Of a stretch of 16,444 bases of DNA, positions 10,218-12,223 are shown one piece after another (position 1 is the stretch's first letter; each line of letters opens with the position of its first letter). The stretch comes from Candidatus Hydrogenedentes bacterium CG07_land_8_20_14_0_80_42_17. GTDB lineage: Bacteria; UBA8481. Below the pieces are notes generated by a model that saw nothing but the letters and a program-made list of their open reading frames with translations, was not told where the DNA came from and ran no database searches. Location: NCBI GenBank assembly GCA_002780065.1, contig PEWQ01000044.1, positions 1 through 16,444 on the forward strand, written 5' to 3'. Both the position numbers and the translations under genes were made by a program.

Positions 10218-10826
10218 ATGTCAATTCGTCCTCAAGCATTCGAATCGCTTGTAAAAGCGATTTCTCAGTTTCCAACAATAGGCCCTAAAACAGCCGCCAG
10301 AATAGCGCTGTGGCTCCTCTCTAAACCTCAGTCTGTCAGCGAAGAGATCGGAAAGACGTTGATCGAAGCCAGAGCGCAGATTCGGCCATGCTCCGTTTGC
10401 TATCAATTCACAGATGCAGAAGTTTGCGAAATATGTTCCGACGTCTCCAGAGACCGCTCGTTAATTTGCGCCGTAGAAACGTCTGTCGATGTCTGGAACT
10501 TTGAGCGGACAAAACAATTCAAAGGGCTCTATCACGTTCTTGGCGGAGCGTTATCGCCGATTGATGGAATAGGGCACGACGAATTAAAAATAGATTCGCT
10601 CATCGATCGAATAAAAAAATCCGATCCTCCTGTCGCCGAAATAATACTTGCAACCGATCCTGATACCGAAGGCAATGCGACTGCATATTATATTTCCGAA
10701 TTGCTTTCCGGTTTCAATATCAAAAAGACCAGACTCGCTCATGGGATTCCTATAGGCGGTGAAGTTGCCTATTCCGACGATGCAACGCTTTCTGCCGCTC
10801 TAATAGAGCGAAAGCTGATAGGTTAG
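10218..10826 (+). CDS. recR: Recombination mediator protein RecR
   Basis: A 202-residue protein of normal family length. It shows an N-terminal helix-hairpin-helix (ISQFPTIGPKTAARIALWLL), a four-Cys zinc finger (CSVCYQFTDAEVCEIC, residues about 58-73), and a Toprim domain starting at LICAVETSVDVWNFERT with ILATDPDTEGNATAYYI for the acidic motif. The end GIPIGGEVAYSDDATLSAAL is the usual RecR C-terminus. RecR works with RecO/RecF to load RecA onto SSB-coated single-stranded DNA at gaps. It stands alone here, transcribed divergently from the flagellar operon; the common partner dnaX is not adjacent. Its stop codon lies 1 nt before a MITE-like repeat. Confidence 0.96.
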   Translation: MSIRPQAFESLVKAISQFPTIGPKTAARIALWLLSKPQSVSEEIGKTLIEARAQIRPCSVCYQFTDAEVCEICSDVSRDRSLICAVETSVDVWNFERTKQFKGLYHVLGGALSPIDGIGHDELKIDSLIDRIKKSDPPVAEIILATDPDTEGNATAYYISELLSGFNIKKTRLAHGIPIGGEVAYSDDATLSAALIERKLIG

Positions 10827-10827
10827 A

Positions 10828-10944
10828 GGGTCAGGCTTGAACTTTTTTACTTTTTAATTTTAAAATTTGCATTATTTGTAACTCTAATTGGAAATATTCC
10901 TATCCGTGATTACAAAAAAAAGTAAAAAAGTTCAAGCCTGACCC
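10828..10944. mobile_element. MITE-like element with 28-bp perfect terminal inverted repeats
   Basis: The left arm (10828-10855) begins GGGTCAGGCTTGAAC and the right arm (10917-10944) ends GTTCAAGCCTGACCC; the two arms are perfect reverse complements over 28 nt. They flank a 61-nt AT-rich interior with no coding potential. No target-site duplication is evident. The GGGTCAGGCTTGAAC...TTTTTTAC arm resembles short repeats I recall near REP-associated tyrosine (Y1) transposases in environmental genomes, but that link is from memory. The element fills nearly all of the recR to radical-SAM intergenic space and could fold into one long hairpin in RNA. Confidence 0.7.
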
Positions 10945-10953
10945 CCTTATGAC

Positions 10954-10962
10954 TGCTATAAT
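10954..10962 (+). promoter_or_regulatory. Extended -10 promoter for the radical SAM operon
   Basis: TGC-TATAAT is a perfect -10 hexamer with an extended TGn motif, which can act without a strong -35. It ends 6 nt before ATG 10969, so the mRNA is probably leaderless. Any -35 would fall inside the right arm of the adjacent MITE-like element; none is convincing there. Confidence 0.6.
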
Positions 10963-10968
10963 CTTTTC

Positions 10969-12006
10969 ATGGAACGGGTTAATGCCAGAGAACTAAACCG
11001 AAAATTTAAAAAATGTCCTACACCTTCAGCTGCAATACTTGAATTGACCAATCGATGCACATTGAACTGCTTTCACTGTATTCGCGAGGCAAACCGTCTA
11101 AACCTCAGCAACGAGCTCTCCACTTCGGACTGGCTGAATGTTCTCGAAGACCTTCGTTCCATTCAAACCTTCTCGATATGTTTTTCAGGAGGTGAAGCTC
11201 TAGAACACGAGGGCTTCTTCGAACTTGCGGTGCGTGCCAGAGAACTCGGTATGGTAACAACGTTAAAGACAAACGGCATGAAGCTCTCAGAATTTAAATC
11301 GAAATTGAAAGATGTCGGAATTGGTTCTGTCGATGTTTCTCTATACGGTTCAAATTCAGAAACTCACGATTCAATAACAGGAAGTAAAGGTTCTTTTGCC
11401 CGTTCAATAGAAGGAATTAAATCAATACGTGAAGAAGGAATTCCTGTTCACATATCTTATCTGATAATGAGAGCCAATGCCGCCGAGTCAGAAGAGATGC
11501 GGTTTCTTGCGAATAAACTTGATGCAACAATACAACGAGATTTTTTTCTAATGCCCACTGACTGCGGCAAAGAACTCGATGATTCCTTCATAACTCCTGT
11601 CCAGATCAGAGAAGTCGAAGAAGCCTGGCCGATGTCGTCTCTTCCTTCAAATCAAAACGGCAGAGACGGAATCAAAGTTTGCGCTCAAGGAATGAATGTC
11701 ATCTCAATCACAGCAAGCGGAGATATTCTTTCCTGCGAGCTCTTGAGAAAACCGCTCGGAAACGTAAAAGAAGAGGGTATTCGCCGCATTTGGGCGGAAG
11801 CGTCTAGTCAACCGGGTCGAACTCATAATCTGAACTTTTTGCTTTTTAAAACATGTAAAGATTGCAATTTATTGCCTCAATGCTACATTTGTATAGGTCA
11901 GAATTATACGTCGACTGGAAGTTTTTACGAACCTCCTCTCGAAAGGTGCTACATAACAATGGCATTATTTGGAAATAAATTGCAGAAGGAAGAGACTTAT
12001 GCGTAA
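10969..12006 (+). CDS. Radical SAM/SPASM peptide maturase
   Basis: A 345-residue enzyme. The radical SAM cluster motif is CTLNCFHC (Cys30, 34, 37; CX3CX2C), followed by the SAM-binding CFSGGEAL (near 71) and a TIM-barrel body. The C-terminus has a complete seven-Cys SPASM pattern: Cys238-X12-G-X4-Cys256, then Cys296-X2-Cys299-X5-Cys305-X2-Cys308, and Cys327, to hold auxiliary iron-sulfur clusters. Such enzymes usually modify ribosomal peptides, for example through thioether or C-C crosslinks. The next gene overlaps its end by 8 nt and encodes a Cys-rich 74-residue peptide, the obvious substrate. No separate RRE/PqqD-like leader-binding domain is obvious. Fold and family are seen from the motifs; the chemistry performed is unknown. 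Confidence 0.92.
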   Translation: MERVNARELNRKFKKCPTPSAAILELTNRCTLNCFHCIREANRLNLSNELSTSDWLNVLEDLRSIQTFSICFSGGEALEHEGFFELAVRARELGMVTTLKTNGMKLSEFKSKLKDVGIGSVDVSLYGSNSETHDSITGSKGSFARSIEGIKSIREEGIPVHISYLIMRANAAESEEMRFLANKLDATIQRDFFLMPTDCGKELDDSFITPVQIREVEEAWPMSSLPSNQNGRDGIKVCAQGMNVISITASGDILSCELLRKPLGNVKEEGIRRIWAEASSQPGRTHNLNFLLFKTCKDCNLLPQCYICIGQNYTSTGSFYEPPLERCYITMALFGNKLQKEETYA

Positions 12007-12223
12007 GCAATACAAAAAGCCAATTCTAACGTGCTATGAGCGAGCCGATCTCGGATATTATTCTCCCTCCAATGCAAATACAAACTGTCAGGCTGATTGC
12101 TCCGCGAGCGTATGCTCTCTCGTCGCCACAAATTCTGGAAGTCCGTGCGATGCTTGCGATTGTTTTGACACTTGCGGAACAGGAATTGTGCCCGCCATCG
12201 ACTGCTTCCCTGGAGACTGCTAA
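11999..12223 (+). CDS. Cys-rich peptide, probable RiPP precursor
   Basis: A 74-residue peptide starting MRKQYKKPILTCYERADLGY. The start at 11999 is preferred over an in-frame ATG 30 nt upstream because AAGGA lies 8 nt before it, and it gives a clean leader. Residues 1-15 hold all the basic residues, with a KQYKKPxL motif like that of several RiPP leaders. Residues 25-74 form an acidic core without Lys or Arg. Ten Cys are at 12, 30, 34, 39, 50, 53, 55, 59, 69 and 74; the core contains CDACDCFDTC and ends DCFPGDC. The gene overlaps the radical SAM gene by 8 nt. I do not recognise the exact family. It is inferred to be the substrate of the upstream SPASM enzyme; a metal-binding peptide is the alternative. 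Confidence 0.8.
   Translation: MRKQYKKPILTCYERADLGYYSPSNANTNCQADCSASVCSLVATNSGSPCDACDCFDTCGTGIVPAIDCFPGDC

Follow-up and report, generated by a model that had tools for sequence, protein, structure and literature searches.

A probable two-gene radical SAM RiPP cassette with a candidate nine-cysteine precursor family in 'Candidatus Hydrogenedentota'

Introduction

Radical SAM RiPP cassettes commonly, though not universally, include an RRE at the locus, either fused or discrete. Their SPASM enzymes usually have a Cys-rich end of the form CX2CX5CX3C. Among maturases of known chemistry, SkfB forms a sactionine and PqqE forms a C-C bond. Lasso peptide loci encode B1 (an RRE), B2 (Transglut_core3) and C (an Asn-synthase-like cyclase), and Transglut_core3 marks the lasso-B2 type of leader peptidase. 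YxxP has been published as a motif recognised by RREs, and the RREs of lasso, PQQ and sactipeptide systems bind motifs related to it (PMC12710340). One of these is the sactipeptide RRE StsC (PMC12710340).

Here, we describe a radical SAM/SPASM enzyme gene overlapped by a small Cys-rich reading frame. Both lie in a window, the whole stretch of DNA analysed, that is one entire contig (G000:C53, 16,444 bp) of a 2.39 Mb genome (87% complete). The pair is a genuine radical SAM RiPP cassette of a two-gene form that lacks an RRE. It appears to be a real unit for a peptide natural product, one that has no name yet.

Results

P0002 has radical SAM and SPASM motifs

The enzyme gene (10969 to 12006, forward strand) was delimited by its open reading frame, Pfam matches and comparison with a relative. 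Its product, P0002, is a peptide maturase of 345 aa with no fused RRE domain. Pfam matches Radical_SAM (E=2.9e-19) and SPASM (E=2.1e-7). The radical SAM motif is C30-X3-C34-X2-C37, and the SPASM region has seven Cys (positions 238, 256, 296, 299, 305, 308 and 327). Hence, the CX3CX2C and seven-Cys SPASM motifs claimed by a sequence-only reading are both present and complete. All ten residues are retained in the 44% identical enzyme of the relative. One refinement is needed: the Cys-rich end is CX2CX5CX2C (C296, C299, C305, C308), so that the last close pair is CX2C and not the usual CX3C. This arrangement is common to most of the related enzymes found; more distant Chloroflexota relatives have CX2CX5CX3C. 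By motif criteria, P0002 is a predicted radical SAM/SPASM RiPP maturase with CX2C in place of CX3C.

No NCBIfam maturase model scored P0002 above its cut-off, and every score with the Sts, SkfB and mycofactocin models was far below. Likewise, no maturase model shown reached its cut-off with the relatives tested. Sequence and fold searches identified SkfB and PqqE as the nearest solved relatives. The AlphaFold model of P0002 (mean pLDDT 62, poor in the SPASM half) served only for the radical SAM barrel, which Foldseek confirmed. We also noted by eye, within 10951-10969, an extended -10-like sequence, TGCTATAAT, ending ~7 nt upstream of the P0002 ATG. Transcription from there would yield an mRNA with no 5' leader, or almost none.

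P0001 is a Cys-rich peptide with a leader and a putative core

The peptide gene runs from an ATG at 11999 to a stop at 12223, on the forward strand, and encodes P0001, a putative RiPP precursor of 74 aa. Its ATG overlaps the end of the P0002 gene by 8 nt, which bears out the overlapping 74-residue peptide of the sequence-only reading; an 84-aa version of the frame starts at an upstream TTG. Residues 1-25 (11999 to 12073, forward strand), MRKQYKKPILTCYERADLGYYSPSN, form a leader with a YxxP RRE-recognition-type motif, and we infer the leader/core boundary at this point. The putative core (residues 26-74; 12074 to 12220, forward strand) has 49 aa, nine Cys and no Lys or Arg, and ends in Cys. Over the whole peptide, Cys occupies positions 12, 30, 34, 39, 50, 53, 55, 59, 69 and 74, and no Lys or Arg occurs beyond residue 15. 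The basic KQYKKPxL leader and the acidic, Lys/Arg-free core with nine of the ten Cys had thus been described correctly. The window has 98 stop-to-stop frames with lengths of 50-150 codons, and the P0001 frame is the richest of these in Cys. No model in Pfam, NCBIfam or PHROGs matched P0001 over its cut-off.

The same pair occurs in a relative

Besides the window genome, we compared one genome from the phylum, the 'Candidatus Hydrogenedentota' MAG G001, and it has a matching pair. It lies on contig C58 (RFFU01000028.1, 'Candidatus Hydrogenedentota bacterium isolate J006'), at a different location from that in the window. The P0001 homologue (E=2.6e-5; 75 aa, beginning MTLRRYEKPELTFYGSAEIGYFSPSNMAADCSCDC...) overlaps the gene of the enzyme homologue at ATGA. 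An ABC transporter ATPase gene starts ~15 nt after it. The two peptides are identical at 26/74 residues, 15 of these 26 being encoded by different codons. Hence, we confirmed that P0001 is a real gene, beyond chance, by its Cys-richness in the window and by the overlapping homologous frame in G001.

Conservation is concentrated in the leader. Here, 14/25 residues are identical and both peptides follow the pattern YxKPxLTxY...GY-SPSN. For the leader, pS is 0.85 and pN 0.27, indicative of purifying selection. In the core, conservation is weak (pN 0.56). All these values are rough because pS is near saturation. The checks proposed with the sequence-only reading, co-occurrence of peptide and enzyme and selection on the small frame, therefore both came out in its favour. 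After the conserved SPSN, each peptide has exactly 49 residues, nine Cys and a terminal Cys. In contrast, core Cys spacings are 3,4,10,2,1,3,9,4 in the window and 1,1,7,7,8,3,3,6 in G001, and Cys12 of the P0001 leader is Phe in G001. CX3D/E occurs three times in the P0001 core (shuffle p 0.058) and not once in that of the relative. We rejected CX3D as a family motif for this reason. Given weak core conservation and differing spacings, no crosslink pattern can be deduced. The family signature is the leader, the core length and the Cys number. The suggestion of a new precursor family thus stands as regards database matches, while the Cys spacing first offered as its mark is not family-defining. 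On present sequences, P0001 is best read as a new, undescribed precursor family of radical SAM RiPPs with two known members.

The pair is inserted between host genes

In the window, the P0002-P0001 pair sits between recR and a GYF gene. On contig C96 of G001, recR, GYF and glnD are adjacent, with neither enzyme nor peptide between. Hence, the window pair is a two-gene insert, and GYF and glnD are host neighbours. We therefore rejected the GYF/B-box gene as a possible partner in the cassette: in G001 it lies between recR and glnD with no cassette there. The simplest reading is that enzyme and peptide would move together, as a unit of two genes. The stretch from recR to the cassette holds a 123 bp MITE/REP-like element (10825 to 10947, no strand assigned) with inverted arms of 31 nt, 97% complementary and 61 nt apart. 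Its terminus, GGGTCAGGCTTGAAC, has 29 copies in the genome, several in pairs ~110-125 bp apart. One pair, ~0.9 kb apart, flanks a Y1_Tnp transposase (L100 1024-1860). The element is a neighbour of the cassette and is possibly linked to its insertion.

No RRE, peptidase or transporter gene was found at the window locus, and no PqqD-type RRE lies beside either pair, in the window or in G001. Similarly, no lasso-type B1, B2 or Asn-synthase-like cyclase was recognised among the window ORFs. Hence, the B1, B2 and C set of a lasso locus is absent.

Both genomes encode a paralogous system with an RRE

The window genome has one clear PqqD-type RRE, stand-alone and on contig C150, although at 87% completeness the count may be low. 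It belongs to a cluster (L023 164-2673) with a second radical SAM/SPASM enzyme, 27% identical to P0002, and an overlapping WKKPELTRY peptide. In G001, contig C62 (L024, L122) carries the same cluster with adjoining Transglut_core3 and HprK-like proteins, the latter label denoting resemblance to ORFs weakly matching PF07475. The one Transglut_core3 protein over cut-off in the window genome is on contig C57, again with an HprK-like protein. The W/YxKP peptides of the paralogous clusters have two Cys. Within one genome, the leaders DWKKPELTRY (paralogous) and QYKKPILTCY (P0001) have KKPxLTxY in common.

Two further features of these genomes were observed. The C150 cluster has a methyltransferase whose C-terminal part gives a PRMT-like match (PRMT_C), which looks unusual in a radical SAM RiPP cluster. 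Elsewhere in G001 (C88; L102 433-3124), a PqqD accompanies an ATP-grasp-like protein and a PLP decarboxylase (LysA/FslC-like). At its N-terminus, this decarboxylase carries KKIYEKPMIL, which resembles YxxP leaders and gives the impression of an RRE tag joined to an enzyme.

Related enzymes adjoin YxxP-leader peptides

P0002 alone gave no match in the genome contigs. A two-row alignment of P0002 and the G001 enzyme retrieved the relative's record and some 25% identical enzymes from Chloroflexota and others, which do not adjoin YxxP peptides. Scans of viral contigs and plasmid tblastn gave no matches. With the two-peptide profile, 386 genomes yielded both members and four weak matches; the two of these inspected, L092 and L094, were rejected as precursors.

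We scored enzyme loci against the two-row enzyme profile. Of the loci retrieved, 21 from several phyla reached at least 150 bits. The window pair is one of them and some others are near-copies, so that they are not 21 independent cases. A same-strand YxxP peptide was present within 400 bp of the enzyme in 16 of them, and within 700 bp in 18. Adjacency fell to 4/19 at 130-150 bits and 1/28 below 130 bits, and was 1/68 in the reversed-sequence null. The leaders take the form [KR]xYx[K..]PxL. Of the 18 loci with a YxxP peptide, 14 also have a PqqD-type RRE next to the enzyme. More distant enzymes in other phyla (~30% identity) sometimes occur with a lasso-B2-type peptidase. Outside the window and G001 pairs, the peptides of most YxxP relatives contain far fewer Cys. 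The best-scoring outside group (L063-L065 and L114-L116, another phylum; enzymes 169-210 bits) has, where checked, the order RRE, Transglut_core3 of lasso-B2 type, enzyme, peptide. Pfam confirms the RRE in L115 and L064 and the Transglut_core3 protein in L115 and L116. In a tree, P0002 and the G001 enzyme form a 100/100 clade, with a position in the YxxP group that is not settled. As an aside, the related radical SAM enzymes of L109 (3793-6568) and L110 (4447-7125) accompany long ETSALACGK-type YxKP peptides. In both, a PLP aminotransferase-like gene lies upstream and no PqqD occurs in the stretch examined.

Discussion

As in radical SAM RiPP cassettes generally, P0002 has beside it a conserved candidate precursor with an apparent leader and core. 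We think it likely that the pair works as follows. The Y-x-K-P-x-L leader of P0001 would be bound by an RRE, or by the enzyme. With no RRE encoded at the locus, recognition is probably by the stand-alone PqqD of the paralogous C150 cassette. P0002, probably translationally coupled to P0001, would then act on the 49-residue, nine-Cys core. Its 5'-deoxyadenosyl radical would abstract hydrogen, and Cys sulfur would be joined to a backbone or side-chain carbon. The leader may be removed by a lasso-B2-type peptidase encoded elsewhere in the genome. The ABC ATPase gene of G001 suggests that the product is perhaps exported, and it may be bioactive.

The window pair may borrow both RRE and peptidase in trans, as a satellite of the paralogous system. 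We suggest this mainly because the KKPxLTxY leader motif is shared within one genome. Alternatively, P0002 could bind the leader directly and need no RRE, making a stand-alone two-gene system. This is quite plausible, if not what we expect on balance. The absence of a local RRE from both members, the extension of leader conservation beyond YxKP to GY-SPSN, and L109 and L110, related loci also without a nearby RRE, are consistent with it. However, YxxP is kept in both species, and the P0001 leader resembles that of the RRE-served paralogue. We continue to favour recognition by an RRE in trans.

SkfB and PqqE bracket the chemical options, which makes thioether formation by P0002 somewhat probable and not secure. 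Crosslinking of P0001 would then be of sactipeptide or ranthipeptide type, as the sequence-only reading supposed. We give tentative credence to a RiPP cassette with other chemistry: C-C or C-O crosslinks, epimerisation or decarboxylation, the nine Cys serving for disulfides or metal. SPASM enzymes carry out many reactions, and among the nearest solved structures a C-C bond former (PqqE) stands beside a sactisynthase (SkfB). Cys spacing varies freely, and peptides of most other YxxP relatives have far fewer Cys. Conversely, nine core Cys are conserved, an odd count that pairwise disulfides could not consume, so that Cys is the likeliest substrate. Thioether linkage remains our preferred outcome.

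An acidic, Cys-rich core could also fit a small protein with a metal-binding or redox role that P0002 matures or regulates, rather than a secreted natural product. The insertion adjoins housekeeping genes, and the window has no immunity or export gene. Nevertheless, this is unlikely: the peptide has a leader-core architecture with an RRE-type motif, an ABC ATPase gene lies just past the G001 copy, and the variable Cys spacing contrasts with metal sites, where spacing is usually conserved. Lastly, the ORF is short and only two sequences are available, yet chance resemblance is scarcely credible given a second genome with the frame in the same place and overlap, and identities kept through changed codons.

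A bolder version of the trans model is rather doubtful to us. The pair would be a mobile two-gene satellite. Via a shared YxKP-type leader, it would borrow the RRE and lasso-B2-type peptidase of the resident paralogous cluster to make a 49-residue product, densely crosslinked by thioethers in a topology not seen before. If the cassette is as we propose, radical SAM RiPPs gain a precursor family whose core is unusually dense in Cys, from a phylum represented here by two genomes. It would also suggest that maturase-precursor pairs move as minimal units, one RRE being shared in trans through a leader motif. Finally, the data point beyond the pair to a wider set of radical SAM clusters with YxxP leaders. 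Several of these clusters have lasso-type B1/B2 parts, and their enzymes, where tested, score under NCBIfam cut-offs.

Comparison with known systems

Sts (StsA/StsB/StsC; NCBIfam NF045558 and NF045574) resembles the window pair in combining a SPASM maturase with a small precursor, and its discrete RRE binds a motif of W/Y/LxxP type (PMC12710340). P0002 scores 76.6 bits with the StsB model, far below the cut-off of 625. A weak match to StsA (E=0.006) is given by the peptide of L007/L028, a related locus, whereas no StsA model matches P0001. The window pair has no local RRE and a core with nine Cys.

SkfB, the sporulation killing factor sactisynthase (PDB 6efn, TIGR04403), gives the best match to P0002 among solved structures, both by sequence (E=7.7e-26) and by fold (Foldseek E=1.9e-15). 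However, SkfB has ~90 extra residues before the matched region that are absent from P0002, and the P0002 score of 82 bits is below the cut-off of 300. This comparison covers the enzymes. PapB-type ranthipeptide maturases (NF047865) also pair a SPASM enzyme with a substrate rich in Cys and Asp, but PapB does not appear among the 25 NCBIfam models that match P0002 best. PapA/freyrasin-type ranthipeptides have conserved, repeated CX3D/E, unlike the window family, with three in one core and none in the other.

The L063-L065 and L114-L116 clusters differ from the window in having a local RRE, a two-Cys core (CxLxRC) and, where checked, a Transglut_core3 gene. Their YxKPxLxKY leader is similar to that of the window pair. 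They also share with it an enzyme followed by an overlapping or adjacent peptide and, where checked, the CX2CX5CX2C end.
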